62,359 nt of DNA, taken from NCBI GenBank assembly GCA_023251435.1, contig JAHEYU010000024.1, forward strand, positions 9,204 through 71,562, written 5' to 3'. Origin of the DNA: Bacteroidota bacterium. GTDB taxonomy: Bacteria; Bacteroidota; Bacteroidia; Bacteroidales; Prolixibacteraceae. Position 1 is the first letter of the stretch. Each line of letters starts with the position of its first letter. Under the pieces are notes generated by a model. The model was not told the origin of the DNA, ran no database searches, and saw only the letters and a list, made by a program, of their open reading frames with translations. Positions 12,079-54,100 of the stretch are shown in pieces. The translations under genes and the position numbers were made by a program.

Positions 12079-14724
12079 ATGCATTTAAGATTTTTACTTC
12101 TGTCTTTCCTGATTTTTATTTCATCTGTTTCTGCATTTTCACAGGGAATTCGCGGTCGGATTACCAACGAACAAGGCGAAGCAGTTCCATTTGCCAATAT
12201 TTATATTCCTGAATTGTCAACCGGTACCGCATCGAACATCGACGGAATTTATGAACTGAAACTTCCGGAGGGAAAGTGGAAAGTTTTGTTTCAATACCTT
12301 GGTTATCATACTCAAAACATTGAAGTTGCGATCGGGAACACATTTCAGGAAATCAATGTCAGGCTAATGAATCAGGATTACCGGATTCCGGAGATTAAAG
12401 TAATGGCTTCGGGCGAAGATCCTGCGTATTACATTATGCGCCGGGCAATTGCGATGGCGCCCTATTACCAGAAACAGGTTTCGAAATACTCGTGCAAAGT
12501 TTATCTGAAAGGCTCAGGAGTGTTCGAGAAAATTCCGTTTTTGATGGAAAAGCAGATGAGAAAGGGCGGTGTTAAAGAAAATCAGCCTTTCGTAATGGAA
12601 ACTGTCAGTAAAATTGATTTCGAACTTCCGGATAAAGTGAACCAAAAAGTTTTGGCAATGCGGTCGTCGGGCCAGCAAAATAACACATCGCCAATGGGAA
12701 TGATTACCAATAATTTGTACGATGCCGACAAATACGGAGTCGTTTCACCGGTTGGGAAAAGCGCTTTGAAAGTTTATAATTTCAGGCTCGAAGGTGTTTT
12801 TGACGATCAGGGACGAACGATCAACAAGATTAAAGTGACACCCAAAATCAAGGGCAGTGATGTGTTTTCAGGATACATTTTTATTGCCGACGGATTCTGG
12901 AATATCCATTCGGCCGATTTGACAATGCACATTACAATGACCGATGTTAAAGTGCGCCAGGTTTATGCTGAAGTAAACAAAAATACATGGATGCCGGTGA
13001 GCCTCGATTTTGATATGAACTTTTCGGGACTTGGACTGAAGATGAAATACAAATATGTGGCTTCCATCAGCGAATACAAAACCACGCTGAATCCGGCTTT
13101 GGATCATACTTTCGTTGAAAAGCAGAAGCTTCAGCTGATGGAGGAACAAAAGGTTTTCGACAAGATTGCTGATGAAACCAGGCAAATTCAACAGCAGCGG
13201 GAACAAAAAACTCGCGAGCAAAAGCGGATGGCTGAATTGTTGCAAAAACAGGAACTGAATAACCGCGAAACAGTGAAACTTAGCCGCCTGATTGAAAAGG
13301 ATACAAAACGCAACAGTCCTCCAGAACCGCTCGAAATAAAGTCAAGTTTTCAGGTGAGTCAGAAACAGGTAAACAACGACACAGCCTATTGGGCAACACT
13401 GCGGCCTATTCCGCTGACTGAAAAGGAGAAAGTAAGCTTTGCAAAAAAAGACTCTTTTCTGGTGGTTTCGTCAACCCCCGAATTCAAAGACTCGATTCGC
13501 GATTCGCGCCGGAAATTTAAACTGAAACATTTGATAGTGGGGAAGAGCTATAATTATTCGATCGATTCGGTCAGGAGAACCGAAATTTTCACCATTCCAA
13601 ACCTTACCGACCCAACTTCACTTTCGTTCAATACGGTTGACGGATTGCGTATTGAGTTGCCTTTCAACTATTACAGATCAGATAGTCTGGGTCGGTCTTT
13701 ACGATTGAGTCCGCAATTTGCCTACGCTTTTGCCCGTAAAAAACCGGATTTCACATTTACATACAGTCAGCGGTTAAACGGACTGACAAACACATGGATT
13801 TCGGCCAGCATGGGCTCAACTACCGAAGATTTCAACCACGATTCGGGTTTGCCAACCATGACCAATGATTTTTATACGCTCTGGCTCAAAGAAAATTACA
13901 AACGTTTTTACCGGCGAGATTTTTTACAACTGAAGTTTAGCCGCGATCTGGCAAACGGGCTGAACCTGAATACAACCATTGAATACAGCGACAATATACA
14001 ACTGACGAATAATTCAAATTATTCGTTCATTAAATATGCCGACAAGGAATTTAAGCCAAATATTCCTGAAAATAATACATTTGACGAGTGGCAGCTTGGA
14101 AGACATCAGTCGATTATCGGGCGGTTTGTACTGGAATATACTCCGCACCACCGGTATCGAATTCGGAACAATACAAAAATGTATGCCGAAAGCAAATTTC
14201 CGACCTATTCGCTTGAGTATAAAGGAGCGTTTTCGGGTTTTTTTGGAAGCGATTCGCGTTTCGATTTGCTGAAAGTTGGTATCAGGCAAAAAATCAGTTT
14301 TGGTATTTCCGATGTCTTTTCCTACCAGATTCATGCAGGTAAATTTTTGAATAGTAGTCGTTTGTATTTTGAGGATTTCCGGCATTTCAATACAAAGTCC
14401 ACCGGTTTTTTATTTTCACCGTACGATAACAGTTTTAGGTTGCTTCCTTTTTATGATTATTCAACCGGCAAACAATTTGCCGAAGGCCATGCCGAATGGC
14501 AATCGCGCCGTTTGATTGTGAAGCAGTTGCCAATATTCAAAAACTCTTCGATCTCGGAAATACTGTTTGTGAATTATCTGGCTACTCCCGGAATTGAAAA
14601 TTATGTGGAAACAGGATACGGTATCAGAAACTTATTTTTATTGCTGAATGTAGAGGCAGTTGCTGGTTTCGGGAACGGTAAATTCAGATCTTCAGGAATT
14701 AGAGTGAGCTTGAATATGCCGTAA
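12079..14724 (+). CDS. DUF5686 outer-membrane protein with carboxypeptidase-regulatory-like N-domain
   Basis: 881 residues from the signal-peptide ATG (MHLRFLLLSFLIFISSVSAFSQ). Immediately after cleavage comes a CarboxypepD_reg-like beta domain (GIRGRITNEQGEAVPFANIY, GTASNIDGIYELKLPEG, FQYLGYHTQ), as seen at the front of SusC-type and DUF5686 proteins. The remaining ~750 residues match the DUF5686 layout: a soluble region with a Q/E/R-rich coiled stretch (QQQREQKTREQKRM), then a beta-rich C-terminal half with alternating aromatic strands typical of an outer-membrane barrel. No plug or TonB box is recognised, so it is not a classical TonB-dependent receptor. The function of the family is unknown. 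hemH follows on the same strand. Confidence 0.85.
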   Translation: MHLRFLLLSFLIFISSVSAFSQGIRGRITNEQGEAVPFANIYIPELSTGTASNIDGIYELKLPEGKWKVLFQYLGYHTQNIEVAIGNTFQEINVRLMNQDYRIPEIKVMASGEDPAYYIMRRAIAMAPYYQKQVSKYSCKVYLKGSGVFEKIPFLMEKQMRKGGVKENQPFVMETVSKIDFELPDKVNQKVLAMRSSGQQNNTSPMGMITNNLYDADKYGVVSPVGKSALKVYNFRLEGVFDDQGRTINKIKVTPKIKGSDVFSGYIFIADGFWNIHSADLTMHITMTDVKVRQVYAEVNKNTWMPVSLDFDMNFSGLGLKMKYKYVASISEYKTTLNPALDHTFVEKQKLQLMEEQKVFDKIADETRQIQQQREQKTREQKRMAELLQKQELNNRETVKLSRLIEKDTKRNSPPEPLEIKSSFQVSQKQVNNDTAYWATLRPIPLTEKEKVSFAKKDSFLVVSSTPEFKDSIRDSRRKFKLKHLIVGKSYNYSIDSVRRTEIFTIPNLTDPTSLSFNTVDGLRIELPFNYYRSDSLGRSLRLSPQFAYAFARKKPDFTFTYSQRLNGLTNTWISASMGSTTEDFNHDSGLPTMTNDFYTLWLKENYKRFYRRDFLQLKFSRDLANGLNLNTTIEYSDNIQLTNNSNYSFIKYADKEFKPNIPENNTFDEWQLGRHQSIIGRFVLEYTPHHRYRIRNNTKMYAESKFPTYSLEYKGAFSGFFGSDSRFDLLKVGIRQKISFGISDVFSYQIHAGKFLNSSRLYFEDFRHFNTKSTGFLFSPYDNSFRLLPFYDYSTGKQFAEGHAEWQSRRLIVKQLPIFKNSSISEILFVNYLATPGIENYVETGYGIRNLFLLLNVEAVAGFGNGKFRSSGIRVSLNMP

Positions 14725-41253: not shown

Positions 41254-44200
41254 ATGAGATTTTTCCAGAATTCAGTACTCCAAAAACACCTGAAAAATCA
41301 GGATGCGGAAGCCATGAAAGCCGCATATAATAAGTTCACAGCATATTTTCATAACCCTGAAATACAACAAAATATTCGCGATGCCAAAGAGGAACAGTTT
41401 CAGGAAGGATTTCTAAGGGAATTGTTTGTCAATGTGTTGGGCTATATACTCAATCCGTCGCCTGGCTATAACCTCACCTCGGAACTGAAGAACGAAAAAG
41501 GAGCTAAAAAAGCCGATGGGGCTATACTAGCCCCATCGAGGGAGCATGCTCCCTCGTCGATAGAGAGGAAAGCGATAGCGGTGATTGAGCTGAAAGGAAC
41601 GGATACGAAAGATCTGGATAAAATCAACGTTCAGGCGTTCAACTACAAAAACAACCAAACGGGTTGTGTTTATGTGATCACTTCCAATTTCGAGAAACTG
41701 CGGTTTTTTATTCATCACTCGGTCGATCACCTCGAATTTAATCTGTTTACCTTAACCGAAAGCGAATTTCAACTGCTATGGCTTTGCCTGAGCGCCGGAA
41801 ATCTTTTGAACGGAGTTCCGCTGAAAGTGAAGGAAGACAGCTTGCTCGAAGAAGAAAAAGTTACCAAACAACTCTATAAAGATTATTCGGCTTTCAGGAC
41901 CGATTTGTGGCAGAATATGGTAAAGAACAGTCCCGAGGCCGACCGCTTGCTGTTGTTTAAGAAAACCCAGAAATTGCTGGATCGCTACCTGTTTATTTTG
42001 TTTGCCGAAGACAGCGGTTTGTTGCCGCCCAATTCGGTTTCGCGGATTCTGAAACGCTGGGAACTGTTAAAAGAGGAAGATGCCTACAAACCCCTGTATA
42101 AAATATTCAACCAGTATTTTGACTACATCAACACTGGTAGGAAAGGGAAAAATCCGGAGGGTGACATTTTTGCCTATAACGGCGGATTGTTTTTGCCCGA
42201 TGAGGTGCTGGATTATGTGGTGATTGATGATGAAATTCTACATCAGCATGTGACGAAGCTGACCAATTACGATTTCCAGAGCGAAATTGATGTAAACATA
42301 CTGGGACATATTTTCGAAAACAGCCTCAACGAAATTGAAAACATTACCGCTGAGCTCGAAGGTCAGGAAATTGACAAGAGCAAAAGCAAGCGCAAAAAAG
42401 ACGGGGTATTTTATACGCCCAAATACATTACCAAATACATTGTTGAAAACACCATTGGCAAGCTTTGCGACGAAAAGAAAACCGAACTCGAAATTGTTGA
42501 CGAAGAATATGCCAAAGGACGACGCAACCGCAAAAAGGAAACGATTAAAAAGCTGGCTGATAATTTACAGTCCTACCGCAATTGGCTGCTGCAAATTACC
42601 ATTTGCGATCCGGCATGCGGCAGTGGCGCTTTCCTGAACCAGGCGCTCGAATTTTTAATGACCGAACATGCCTACATCGACGAATTGCAGGCGCAACTGT
42701 TTGGAGCGAGCATTGTGTTTCAGGACATCAGCAACCACATTTTAGAGCAAAACATTTATGGAGTAGATATTAACGAAGAAAGTGTGGATATTGCCAAACT
42801 TTCGTTGTGGTTGCGCACCGCCCAACGCGGTCGGAAACTAACTACCCTGAACAACAACATTAAATGTGGTAACTCGCTGATTGACGACCCTGCCGTTGCA
42901 GGCGATAAAGCTTTTAACTGGCAACAGGAATTCCCAACAGTTTTTGCAAAGGGTGGTTTCGATGTGGTGATTGGGAATCCTCCATATGTGAGAGTACAAC
43001 AGATGGAATATATAACAACAGATTATTTGAAATGCAAATATATTGTAGCACAAAAAAGAGTAGATATTTCACTATGCTTTATAGAATTATCAAGTAGATT
43101 AATCATAGAATCAAAAGGTCTTACTTGTTTCATAACATCCAATCAATTTTTGACTACGGAATATGGCCAAGCTATGAGAAGATTTCTGCTAAATGACTAT
43201 AGTATAGTAGAATGCGTTGATTTTGGTGATTTGCCAATTTTTGCAGATGCTTTGACATACGTTAGCATCTTTACATTTAGAAAATATAAAACTACGGAGT
43301 TTAATTATTTTCATATTGAGAGTTTGCAAGATGCAATGGCTGCCAATTTTAAACATCCTATTTATATTAAAAATGATGAACTTTCAGACTCTAATTGGAA
43401 TCTTAAAAATTTTAAGGTCGCGAATATTTGGAAAAGAATTTTTATTGGCAGTAAGGAGATTTCTGAATTAGGTAATGCTTGTTATGGAATTATCACTGGA
43501 GCAGATCCTATCTTTATTTTTTCTAAAGATCAATATCAAAACTCAGAAATTGAAAAAGACTTATTTATCCCATTATTGAGAGCTCAGAATTGTTCTAAAT
43601 ATTTTTGTTTTGAACCAGAGAAATATGTCCTTTATCCGTATAGGTATGAAAATGGCAAGACTATTTTAATTACAGAATATGAATTGAATGAAAAATATCC
43701 AAAAGCTTATCACTATTTACTATCATATAAGTCTGAACTTGAAAATAGAAAAGATAGTCGTGATACTTTTGTAGGTCGTTCTGATTGGTATTGTCTTACT
43801 AGATATGGTCAAATTAATGTTTTTAATAGATTAAAGATTGTAACACCAGGCGAAGTTAAAGAACATAAATTTTGTATCGATTCTACTAAGTCTGGATATA
43901 GTGGAGCAAGAGTGTTTGCAATAACAATTGAGGACAGTTTTTTTGATGAGAGATATATATTGTGTCTATTAAATTCAACATTGATGAAATCCTTTTTACA
44001 AAGTTTTTCTTCATTAAAAAATGGTGGTTTTTATTCTTATTCATCCAATATATTGAATAAAGCTCCTATAAAGCAAATAGGTCCTTTTGAACAGAAAGAA
44101 TATATTGAGAAAGCTGATCTAATGCTTTCCTTGAACAATAATCTACAGCAGTTATCCCAAAAATTCCAACGAACCATCCAACGAAAATTTGCTTTAGACG

Positions 44201-44448
44201 ATCTCCCAGGCAAACTGCAAAACTGGTATTTGCTGTCGTATGCTGAATTTATCGCCGAGTTGGGCAAAAAGAAGGTAAAACTATCGCTTAGCGAAGAAGC
44301 CGAATGGGAAGATTATTTCATTCAGGAAAGTAAAAAAGCACTTGAACTTAAAACAGCTATCGAAGCCACCGACCGCGAAATCGACCGCATGGTTTATGCC
44401 CTTTATGGCCTAAGCGACGAGGAAATCAAAATTGTAGAACAAGCATAA
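41254..44448 (+). CDS. Single-chain type IIG restriction-modification enzyme (Eco57I-like)
   Basis: 1064 residues. The N-terminal PD-(D/E)XK-type nuclease has Asp88 (KKADGAIL) and the ELK motif (Glu112, Lys114 in IAVIELKG). A helical connector follows (ILFAEDSGLLP, GVFYTPKYITKYIVENTIGK). The gamma-class adenine methyltransferase has motif I DPACGSG (452-458) and motif IV NPPY (575-578). The C-terminal ~450 residues form the target-recognition part. One chain should therefore both methylate and cut. A 13-residue palindrome-encoded insertion separates the nuclease Asp and ELK, and the recognition region is unusually AT-rich. No separate S or R subunit is present. Confidence 0.88.
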   Translation: MRFFQNSVLQKHLKNQDAEAMKAAYNKFTAYFHNPEIQQNIRDAKEEQFQEGFLRELFVNVLGYILNPSPGYNLTSELKNEKGAKKADGAILAPSREHAPSSIERKAIAVIELKGTDTKDLDKINVQAFNYKNNQTGCVYVITSNFEKLRFFIHHSVDHLEFNLFTLTESEFQLLWLCLSAGNLLNGVPLKVKEDSLLEEEKVTKQLYKDYSAFRTDLWQNMVKNSPEADRLLLFKKTQKLLDRYLFILFAEDSGLLPPNSVSRILKRWELLKEEDAYKPLYKIFNQYFDYINTGRKGKNPEGDIFAYNGGLFLPDEVLDYVVIDDEILHQHVTKLTNYDFQSEIDVNILGHIFENSLNEIENITAELEGQEIDKSKSKRKKDGVFYTPKYITKYIVENTIGKLCDEKKTELEIVDEEYAKGRRNRKKETIKKLADNLQSYRNWLLQITICDPACGSGAFLNQALEFLMTEHAYIDELQAQLFGASIVFQDISNHILEQNIYGVDINEESVDIAKLSLWLRTAQRGRKLTTLNNNIKCGNSLIDDPAVAGDKAFNWQQEFPTVFAKGGFDVVIGNPPYVRVQQMEYITTDYLKCKYIVAQKRVDISLCFIELSSRLIIESKGLTCFITSNQFLTTEYGQAMRRFLLNDYSIVECVDFGDLPIFADALTYVSIFTFRKYKTTEFNYFHIESLQDAMAANFKHPIYIKNDELSDSNWNLKNFKVANIWKRIFIGSKEISELGNACYGIITGADPIFIFSKDQYQNSEIEKDLFIPLLRAQNCSKYFCFEPEKYVLYPYRYENGKTILITEYELNEKYPKAYHYLLSYKSELENRKDSRDTFVGRSDWYCLTRYGQINVFNRLKIVTPGEVKEHKFCIDSTKSGYSGARVFAITIEDSFFDERYILCLLNSTLMKSFLQSFSSLKNGGFYSYSSNILNKAPIKQIGPFEQKEYIEKADLMLSLNNNLQQLSQKFQRTIQRKFALDDLPGKLQNWYLLSYAEFIAELGKKKVKLSLSEEAEWEDYFIQESKKALELKTAIEATDREIDRMVYALYGLSDEEIKIVEQA
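41514..41556 (+). repeat. Double palindrome inside the restriction-enzyme coding sequence
   Basis: Two abutting palindromes. CGATGGGGCTA (41514-41524) pairs with TAGCCCCATCG (41528-41538) around TAC. CGAGGGAGCATGCTCCCTCG (41537-41556) is a perfect 20-base palindrome. Together they encode roughly APSREHAPSS in frame with the nuclease. Confidence 0.8.
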
Positions 44449-51196: not shown

Positions 51197-54100
51197 TTAC
51201 GAAAGCTTCAGTGTGAAATTAAACGTACTTCCTTTTCCTTCTTTGCTTTCGGCCCATATACGGCCTCCCTGTTTTTCCACGAAATCCTTGCAAAGCAACA
51301 ATCCGAGTCCTGTACTTGGTTCTCCGTCGGTACCGGGTCTGCTTGTATTTACATCTAAACTAAAGAGGTCGTTGACCATCTGTTTTTTCATTCCGATACC
51401 GGTATCGGTTACCGAAATCTTCACAAAGTTATTGCCCGAAGCTTTTGCCACGATACTTACTTTTCCACCCTTATTTGTGAATTTAACCGCATTCGAAGTT
51501 AGGTTGCGAACAACCGATGCGAGCATGTTTTTATCTGCAATCACCTTCATATTGGCAGGAATATCTACAACAATGTCAACCGACTTATTTCGGGCAGCCT
51601 GATAAATTGCTTCCGTTGATTCGGTTAGTACTTTTCTAAGATTCAGAAGTTCAAGGTTGTATGTAGTTAGTCCACGCTGCATTCGTGCCCATTCGAGCAG
51701 GTTGCCTAGCAATTCGAAAAGATTGGCTGCCGAATTTCGCATTGTTCCGGTCATGTGCTGTATTTCATCCAGTGTAAACGATTGCAGGTCCTCTGCCAGA
51801 ATTTCTGTTAAGCCCAAAAAAGAACTCAATGGTCCGCGAACATCGTGTGCGATGATGGAGAAGAATTTATCTTTTTCTGAATTTGTAGTAATCAGTTCTT
51901 CGTTCTTGTCTTGCAGCTCTTCGTTTTTGTGTTTCAGTTCAGAGGTTTGTTCCTTAACTTTTATTTCCAGAAGTTCTTTTTGAAGTTCCAGTTCGCGTTC
52001 TCTCCATTTGATATAGCTTAAAATTAATGATATAAACGTAATCCCTGCCAAAATATAGAACCACCAGGTATTCCACCACGGCGGACGTATTGTAAAATTA
52101 TAGTGGTACTCGTTGCTCCAGAGTCCTTCACTATTCATTGCTTTAACTTTAAAAAGGTATTTGCCGGGCTTCAGGTTCCCATAAGAAACTTCAGTGCGAT
52201 CGGTGAGGTTGCTCCAGCTATCGTCGAGCCCTTTAAGCAGGTATTGATACTTAATCTTCTGATTCTGTTTTTGAGAAATACCAATGTAGCTGAAAGTCAG
52301 AAAATTATTGTTGTGGGCAAGGCTTAAATTCTCGGGAAGATAATACCACTTCGAGATATTGCTGAATTTTAAATTGCCCACTTTAACACCGTTTTCGAGT
52401 ACAAAACTGGTATCCATTTTACTTTCCAGCGTTATCCACGGAATATTTTTATTGAAAAGCTGAATATTTGTTAGCTGGATATTGGGAGTGACTGTATCAG
52501 CAACTTCGCCTTTGGGGTCGATGGCTGTTAAGCGGCTGGTCGATCCAATCCAAATCATCCCATTTTTGTCTTCTAATACTGCATCCATGTTGCATCCAAT
52601 ACCCAGAAAACCATCTTCGTAAGTGTAGTTTTTGAAAAGGGGAATTTCAGTCCTGTCAATTTTTGTTTCTATCATTCCGGGAGCCAGAATATTTGGACCT
52701 AATCTGGTTCCCATCCAAATATTTCCACGTTTATCCTGAAAAAGGCTAGTTATATAATTATTGGTCAAGCCCTCTTTCTCCGTAAATTTTGTAAACAATT
52801 TACCATCGTAGCGGGTAGCTCCACCACCAGAAGTTCCAATCCAGATATTGCCATCCTTATCCTGCAAAAGACTGGCTACATTATTGTGGCTAAGTCCTTC
52901 TTTTTCGCTGAAACGTGTGAAGTGCTTTCCATCAAATCTGGTAACGCCATTGTCGTCGGTACCAAACCACAGGTTACCGCTTTTATCTTCCAGCATACAC
53001 AAAATCTCGTTGCTGCCGATCCCTGATTCTGCCGAATAATTCACGAAATTTTTCCCGTCGAACTTTGAAACACCACCACCGTAACTGCAAAACCATAGAT
53101 TGTTATTCCTGTCCTTCAAAATTTTTCGTATTCCATTGTGACATAATCCTTCATTCTGGGTATAATGATAGAAATACTCACCATCGAATTTTGCCACGCC
53201 CATTCCATCAGAACCAAACCAGATATTTCCATCGTTATCTTCCAGGATGCTATAAATGCGGTCGTTGAGCAGTCCTTGCCTGAGAGAATAATTACTGAAT
53301 TTTTTGCCGTCATAGTTTGTGATTCCGCCTGCGAAGCCGCCAAACCACAAATTGCCCGATCCGTCCTGGAAAATTTCCAGAATTTTGTTGTTCGCAAGGC
53401 CTTCGTTTTCAGTAAAATGAGTAAACAGGTTACCATTAAACCTAACCAAACCACCATCGCGTGTACCGAACCACAGGTTGCCTTGTTTGTCGATCAGCGA
53501 GCAACGCACATAATTATTGGTTAATCCTTCTTTTTCAGTGTAATGGGTGAAATTTGTACCGCTAAGTTTTGAAATTCCACCACCAGAAGTACCAAACCAC
53601 ATCGATCCTTGTCCGTCCTCAAGCATGCACAAAACATTGTCGTCACTTATTCCCTGCCTGGTAGTGTACTGATAAAAATATTTTCCGTCGTATTTTATAG
53701 CCCCGGTTTTGTAAGTACCAAACCACATATTTCCTTGCTTGTCCTGAAACATGGAAACTACCTGGTTGCCCGGGAAATTTTCCCGGGCATTGTAATTCAT
53801 GAAGCTTTTTCCATCGAATCGGCTTACTCCATTTCCAAAAGTACCGAACCAGATCATTCCGTCTTTATCCTGGTAGATGGTTCTGATCTGGTTGCTTGCC
53901 AAACCTTCTTTGGCAGTGTAATGGGTAAATATTTTCCCGTCGAACTTAGAGACGCCTCCACCAGAAGTTGCAATCCAGTAATTTCCGTCTTTATCCTGAA
54001 GGATCGAATTCACAATATTGTTGCTTAATCCTTCTTTTTCGGTAAAATGTGTGAAATGCTTACCGTCGTATTTGGTCACGCCGCCCCCGAAAGTACCGAA

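Follow-up and report, generated by a model that had tools for sequence, protein, structure and literature searches.

The DNA analyzed here (the window) is a stretch of 62,359 nucleotides from a Prolixibacteraceae member of the Bacteroidota (assembly GCA_023251435.1, contig JAHEYU010000024.1), and it contains a type IIG restriction-modification gene with the following features, numbered from the first base of the window:

41254..44448, plus strand: type IIG (Eco57I-like) restriction-modification gene, 1064 aa, without an embedded transposase domain (open reading frame [ORF] and Pfam)
41514..41538, plus strand: hairpin 1, CGATGGGGCTA-TAC-TAGCCCCATCG, 11-bp arms, 3-nt loop, 100% complementary
41515..41517, plus strand: codon of D88, the predicted nuclease Asp, within the left arm of hairpin 1; invariant in 35 aligned rows
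41530..41571, plus strand: loop residues 93 to 106, between predicted strands 89 to 92 and 107 to 113 (AlphaFold2 model)
41537..41556, plus strand: palindrome 2, the perfect 20-mer CGAGGGAGCATGCTCCCTCG, 10-bp arms, no loop, a REP-like insert read as SREHAPS
41587..41595, plus strand: codons of E112-L113-K114, the predicted nuclease E-x-K; all three invariant in 35 aligned rows
42950..42951, plus strand: site C, the position of an in-frame RAYT domain in the closest relative (G008) and other homologues, with no such domain in the window (sequence comparison)

Pfam, alignment, and a structural model place nuclease, adenine methylase, and specificity domain in a single chain. The Pfam matches of the product are Eco57I (E = 2e-47), TaqI_C (E = 2.3e-8), and MmeI_hel (E = 6e-7), and PF01797 is absent among them; the nuclease part is a prediction from its motif and the model. 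By matches in Pfam, NCBIfam (below cut-off), and PDB, the product shares its domains with Eco57I/MmeI-type IIG enzymes and BREX PglX methylases. A response regulator gene neighboring the window gene is found in 18 of 23 genomes of the genus. Comparison of the 17 alignable genus loci besides the window's own gave a weak empty-site test: a relative of the upstream kinase adjoins the response regulator only in G005, where the IIG gene is absent, and the neighborhoods of the remaining loci are unlike or short.

As the original prediction stated, the gene holds a double palindrome in frame, one member of which is a perfect 20-mer; hairpin 1 and palindrome 2 share 2 nt. Palindromes with arms of at least 10 bases and loops of at most 3 number four in the window, compared with a mean of 0.375 and a maximum of 2 in 40 first-order Markov simulations, and two of the four abut at 41514-41556. 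The pair is beyond chance for the window. The two further palindromes, at 14005-14026 and 53767-53789, have 10- to 11-bp arms and another sequence. Both members of the pair had been taken for an insertion, a reading that stands for the 20-mer and not for hairpin 1. Measured against homologues and G008, the left arm of hairpin 1 is native sequence coding for D-G-A-I-L and its right arm is extra, and the few bases that the window has in excess in hairpin 1 repeat, inverted, the native codons immediately before them. Hairpin 1 thus has the look of a templated change made locally, not of an insertion, and the 20-mer looks like the clearer insert and the inserted element proper. Part of the case had also been staked on finding the palindrome elsewhere in the same genome (G000). 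There, the 18-base core of palindrome 2 has no second place at up to two mismatches, and a repeat family of the host genome in this core sequence was rejected on that ground; relatives do carry the design.

The palindromes lie, as anticipated, between D88 and E112-x-K114, which we take to form a PD-(D/E)XK nuclease site. D88, E112, and K114 are invariant in 35 aligned sequences, that of the window among them. In an AlphaFold2 model of residues 1 to 560 (mean pLDDT, 80), the insert appears as a low-confidence loop between strands 89 to 92 and 107 to 113, with pLDDT below 50 at residues 98 to 103. The invariance of these residues and the modeled loop together suggest that the turn has been lengthened with the predicted catalytic residues left in place, and the idea that the insertion inactivates the enzyme against self-cutting finds no support in the alignment or the model. 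The span from KKADG to IELK measures 30 residues in the window and 20 in most homologues (KKADGAIL, six residues, AVIELK), giving 10 extra residues rather than the roughly 13 first estimated. A plain loop of the same length in all close homologues had been named as a sign against a palindromic element. In L202 and L251, which are among the three nearest relatives on the tree, the turn indeed has a glycine-rich, nonpalindromic loop, 8 residues longer than usual, indicating that the nuclease turn tolerates other extra residues too; the turn is palindromic in G008 and, with the window included, in 8 of 40 full-length homologues. Longer turns are scattered over the tree, with 18 changes, at least 12 of which are forced by supported branches.

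An HUH/Y1 transposase domain of RAYT-like type is present in frame in the methylase, just before NPPY, in 18 of the 40 full-length homologues; its insertion point in IIG proteins is just before GGFDVVIGNPPY. In all five IIG proteins of the family that were scanned, the Eco57I profile is split into two stretches around an over-cut-off Y1_Tnp match, and it is this interruption that distinguishes the domain-bearing homologues from Eco57I/MmeI-type IIG enzymes and BREX PglX. The HUH histidines and the Tyr are invariant in 20 of 20 and in 40 of 40 aligned embedded domains, mostly within the motifs GDHxH and YIx[NT]NR. A profile of the embedded domain matches the ISDra2 (7e-5) and ISHp608 (3e-3) transposases in PDB, and the PDB entry most like its model (pLDDT, 87) is 4er8, a RAYT in complex with a REP hairpin (E = 1.9e-5, probability 1.0, TM-score of about 0.5). 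By motif, profile, and modeled fold, the embedded domain is a predicted RAYT/TnpA_Y1 domain.

Two short peptide patterns, run against contigs from 84,980 species, identified 78 loci. At 62 of the 78 a single ORF continues from the domain into NPPY, at 5 the domain is by itself, and at 11 the ORF is broken or leaves the contig. At least one palindrome lies in the ORF at 70 of the 78 loci, and none by our criterion at 8. Record names place most in Bacteroidota or groups within it, a few in Cloacimonadota, Chlorobiota, Ignavibacteria, or Melioribacteraceae, and one in Gammaproteobacteria; three belong to the named strains Tangfeifania diversioriginum DSM 27063, Flavobacterium psychrotolerans RB1R5, and Pedobacter changchengzhani E01020, which argues against assembly artifacts. 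On a tree of the N-terminal half, the domain switches between present and absent 13 times, 12 or more of these on supported branches, suggesting that the domain, like the longer turn, comes and goes. Three of the five domain-alone loci (L201, L238, and L267) encode stand-alone RAYT ORFs of 235 to 255 aa that start with the first residues of the IIG protein. These look like deletion derivatives in which the enzyme was lost around the transposase, and they suggest that the transposase domain can be kept without the enzyme. At site C, IIG genes lacking the RAYT domain (L065, L066, L068, L070, L073, L077, L081, L082, L083, and L092) have before NPPY another kind of segment, some 70 residues long and apparently helical.

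In the genomes scanned for PF01797, large proteins with such a domain were restriction proteins throughout. Across 18 genomes, most of which were picked for having palindromes of this kind, PF01797 has 113 matches, and the 14 that lie inside ORFs of at least 500 aa all fall in restriction proteins: 12 IIG enzymes of the window family (two in broken genes), one other Eco57I-type protein, and one HsdR. Twenty other family genomes without a looser-pattern palindrome place (see below) have 113 PF01797 matches as well, none in ORFs of at least 500 aa. Since a second IIG-type protein and a type I HsdR have a domain of this class as well, restriction genes may be a home that it favors. Free-standing RAYT loci (30 loci from the 113 matches) were rejected as the partner of the palindromes; their flanking palindromes, where present, differ, e.g., CCCCAGCATAAATGCTGGGG.

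The HsdR with an embedded Y1_Tnp domain is a type I restriction subunit of 1285 aa in G002 (L187, 935-4789, minus strand). The domain replaces a short stretch of sequence, and the flanks are 91 to 95% identical to the domain-free HsdR (1071 to 1074 aa) of G005, G013, and G085, so that insertions in HsdR look recent. In the HsdR comparison set (L290 to L298), the match to an HsdR of 1313 aa from G111 also covers most of the G002 insert. The second Eco57I-type protein, 1454 aa (L186, 516-4877, plus strand, in G017), likewise has an embedded Y1_Tnp domain; on either side of the domain lie repeats coding for SEASSFGI and QSKDAL, an arrangement that resembles a complete REPtron in frame.

The view that a palindromic element sits inside a protein gene is borne out by the homologues, many of which carry in-frame palindromes that share a design (consensus AACAAGGGGNCATGNCCCCTTG) and recur at a few sites, the nuclease turn among them; the design is also found in a few unrelated genes. 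The pattern AGGGNGCATGCNCCCT occurs at 20 places in 13 of 140 family genomes, 15 of them in IIG ORFs of the window gene's family, and its reversed control at one place. A looser pattern found 50 places in 21 of the 140 genomes and no control places. Inside IIG genes lie 31 of these, and one is at a contig end just before an IIG ORF; the other 18 comprise 8 in frame in other genes and 10 without a spanning ORF of 120 aa. Four of the 18 are in G084, none of whose five PF01797 matches is within a large ORF. Among 395 genomes of the phylum, the looser pattern has one place in each of three genomes beside G000 (control, one genome), and a general Bacteroidota repeat was rejected at this stringency. 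No genome of the 140 has more than 8 places of one pattern, a count that variants outside the patterns escape. Viral contigs yielded four stretches matching a pattern, none of them a relative, and plasmids and phages yielded no pattern match.

A consensus of 124 palindromes reads AACAAGGGG(N)CATG(N)CCCCTTG, 11 of 135 having been left out for odd length or for lack of GG at the expected place. Most (79) belong to the loop of the domain; another 14 precede the domain by about 210 residues, 10 are at the nuclease turn, 9 near the C terminus, 6 elsewhere, and 6 in genes or pieces without the domain. They are 20 to 28 nt long as a rule, and their arms vary while complementarity persists, palindromes having been chosen for being perfect. 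Two A's before the palindrome carry 0.98 and 1.25 bits, compared with 0.39 and 0.61 at the mirror positions after it. Since this AA recurs in two reading frames, it marks the DNA and not the protein, and it could be a REP-like foot; the window copy is without it.

Outside the IIG family, similar palindromes lie in frame in the ATPase part of proteins that, by motif, we take to be histidine kinases (L142, L143, L144, L145, and L104, in G129 and G084), one of them a perfect palindrome of 44 nt. Two genomes of one genus (G052 and G049) have in-frame palindromes at about the same place (L147, 3921-3940, and L148, 115-134) of what is, by motif, presumably a valyl-tRNA synthetase. A further palindrome (L146, 4263-4282) is at the extreme 3' end of an ORF that we assume from its motif to encode a RimO/MiaB-type protein. 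The incomplete genome G120 has 8 palindrome places, with pairs 45 to 48 bases apart (L136 to L139) and no ORF of at least 120 aa across them, like BIMEs.

To relate palindromes to the domain, we compared 40 genes, which remained from 57 gene pieces (the best homologue matches; 84 genomes had a match) once 17 not of full length or without a readable motif were dropped. Of the 18 domain-bearing genes, 11 have palindromes elsewhere than in the domain, as do 2 of the 22 genes that lack it (Fisher P = 0.0007, with genes treated as independent); the two domain-free genes are the window gene, which was the starting point of the study, and L070. Any longer turn shows the same tendency (8/18 versus 2/22; P = 0.025), and the palindrome at the nuclease turn taken by itself is not significantly associated (6/18 versus 2/22; P = 0.11). 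Twenty domain-bearing genes (73,773 bases) contain 48 palindromes with arms of at least 9 and loops of at most 2, whereas 20 rounds of synonymous shuffling gave 0.95 on average and never more than 2; the protein sequence alone therefore does not demand palindromes. In 240,132 bases of other coding sequence from these loci there are 10, one of them in a broken IIG piece. Further, in the 23 of 70 genes with palindromes both in the HUH-Tyr loop and outside the domain, those outside differ from those of the loop by a mean of 1.13 half-site differences versus 2.44 when permuted (0 of 5,000 permutations), and the distances between domains and those between loop palindromes are correlated (r = 0.35, n = 57, 0 of 2,000). 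Descent and shared base composition may explain part of both the within-gene likeness and this correlation.

G008, of the same genus, informs the history of the window gene. Protein identity is 95 to 96% over residues 1 to 566 (about 89% in DNA), and the G008 gene has the embedded RAYT domain that the window gene lacks. Its turn begins with the same native codons, followed by an imperfect counterpart of the window 20-mer and then by a second palindrome absent from the window; the right arm of hairpin 1 is absent from G008. Two contigs, identical over an overlap of 55 bases, each hold part of the G008 gene. The window sequence runs uninterrupted across site C, soon after which likeness to G008 falls, to about 37% protein identity behind NPPY, and its N-terminal half groups with three domain-bearing genes (SH-aLRT of 100 in a quick tree). 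Given this strong divergence after NPPY, recombination that swapped the specificity part and omitted the domain is the simplest account, and the window gene probably lost the domain through recombination near the NPPY codons. Alternatively, a lineage that never had the domain may have taken its nuclease half by recombination. The window palindrome itself is best read as a tolerated relic.

Among known systems, the palindromes resemble REPs in being hairpin-capable and within 20 to 40 bp and, in the gene family, in being associated with a cognate RAYT, though the window gene itself is without the domain. A REP tag (GTAG/GTGG or CGTC at the foot) was not found, the conserved foot here being AA before C; lacking the tag and apparently few per genome, the palindromes are called REP-like. 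Passages of Quentin et al. 2018 (PMC6006769) describe TnpA_REP subclass 2.4, in which, as here, REP hairpins lie in frame within the transposase gene, generally between HuH and Y, in Bacteroidetes and Cyanobacteria, and the two-sided palindromes recall the double-foot REPs of the same account. In contrast to subclass 2.4, the transposase domain here is inside a IIG enzyme, and palindromes are also found in the restriction and methylase parts. The subclass motifs NH[IFV]H and YIxNNP are likewise not found, GDHxH and YIxNNR mostly standing in their place, and judged by motif the embedded domain is not of subclass 2.4. Canonical REPs, in those passages, have a conserved tetranucleotide foot beside the hairpin, and the GT[AG]G foot is absent here. 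The passages also mention that a few unexpectedly long proteins were discarded as gene fusions or annotation errors and that RAYT function is not yet elucidated; the words methyltransferase and restriction have no occurrence in the main text of that paper.

Intragenic GTAG/CGTC REPs, as passages of Di Nocera et al. 2013 (PMC3733652) present them, are also short in-frame palindromes in many genes, often DNA repair genes and sometimes tRNA synthetases, but they bear GTAG or CGTC tags and form larger families, whereas those here are tagless, apparently few, and concentrated in one restriction family. The likeness to the palindromic elements of Rickettsia (RPEs) drawn in the original prediction holds as an analogy, since RPEs are in-frame palindromic DNA in protein genes and apparently tolerated (passages of PMC10969869 and PMC3733652); the closest kind, however, is REP/RAYT and not the longer RPEs. 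RPEs measure about 150 bp, have a conserved RPE sequence, and occur in unrelated metabolic genes (passages of PMC10969869), whereas the palindromes here are too short for RPEs and have a candidate transposase in their gene family; the same passages and those of PMC3733652 name no transposase for RPEs. In open-licence literature we found no report of a RAYT inside a restriction enzyme, Y1_Tnp with Eco57I included, and we take the fusion to be new. In-frame REPs inside tnpA_REP genes were already known; the RAYT-type domain within restriction enzymes would be the new element.

Our best reading is that a system seen chiefly in Bacteroidota combines, in one gene, a RAYT/TnpA_REP-like HUH domain inside a IIG methylase with the presumed hairpin substrates of that domain, located in the HUH-to-Tyr loop, the nuclease turn, and other loops, with domain and substrates all in frame. 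The window 20-mer, with the hairpin completed beside it, is likely a REP-like palindrome from such a REP-RAYT system within restriction enzymes, left in the window as a relic. The HUH domain would nick and copy hairpins from single-stranded DNA, as RAYTs are believed to do, and the copies would land in many places, with selection keeping only in-frame insertions in flexible loops; tandem duplication also spreads palindromes within a loop, as in L233. The window gene would have inherited its palindrome from a domain-bearing ancestor and since lost the domain. From sequence comparison we infer that the palindromes have been mobilized. A more specific proposal, that an active HUH transposase in the IIG enzyme copies its own hairpins into permissive loops of the same gene and less often into other genes, is tentative, with a chance we put slightly below even.

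It is also conceivable, though unlikely, that the HUH domain was domesticated in a defense enzyme and that the palindromes are autoregulatory binding sites or decoys rather than substrates for spread, an account compatible with a REP-like origin of the palindromes. Domestication is raised for TnpA class 2 proteins generally in passages of Quentin et al. 2018 (PMC6006769), and it accords with the 62 of 78 loci joining domain and NPPY in one ORF with catalytic residues kept. The 13 changes of domain presence on the tree (at least 12 on supported branches), the Y1_Tnp domain in other restriction proteins, and the five domain-alone loci, three of them behind the first IIG residues, seem to fit a mobile or separable unit better.

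Local mutation without a transposase, in which single-stranded hairpins and template switching complete inverted repeats that tandem duplication then spreads, is less probable still as the whole explanation. It would account for hairpin 1, with its native left arm and a right arm absent from G008, and for L233, where a 54-nt unit with a palindrome is in tandem (two of three copies identical, the third at 67%); perfect dyads with varied arms also fit inverted-repeat correction. Alone, it does not predict a common consensus with a conserved 5' AA, recurrence at separate sites, association with the RAYT domain, or a design found both in unrelated genes and as pairs lying outside ORFs.

Folded as RNA, the window stretch is unusually stable (-33.2 kcal/mol; z = -3.97), and this, along with complementarity kept under varying arm sequence (in palindromes chosen for being perfect), would suit mRNA or DNA hairpins retained to slow translation or transcription of a dangerous enzyme rather than mobile relics. 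We regard such a regulatory role as very improbable as the explanation: positions vary between genes, many homologues have no palindromes, and similar copies are found in unrelated genes. That the palindrome is a chance or unrelated loop of the window gene only can be set aside almost entirely; the single-copy 18-base core and the plain glycine-rich loops of two near relatives speak for it, but chance expectation, by window Markov simulation and synonymous shuffles, is far below observation, and the turn of G008 holds both an imperfect counterpart of the 20-mer and another palindrome.

The common picture of a RAYT is a stand-alone gene of unclear benefit to its host. A RAYT-like domain conserved across restriction-modification enzymes from many bacteria, together with its likely hairpin sites in one gene, offers a concrete setting in which to test why RAYTs are retained, candidate reasons being a tie to an addictive restriction-modification gene or a role in defense. 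If the system of REP-like palindromes and embedded transposase works as proposed, loss of the transposase would be tied to loss of the restriction-modification system. The same setting also bears on how palindromes spread in frame and how enzymes tolerate insertions beside their active sites.
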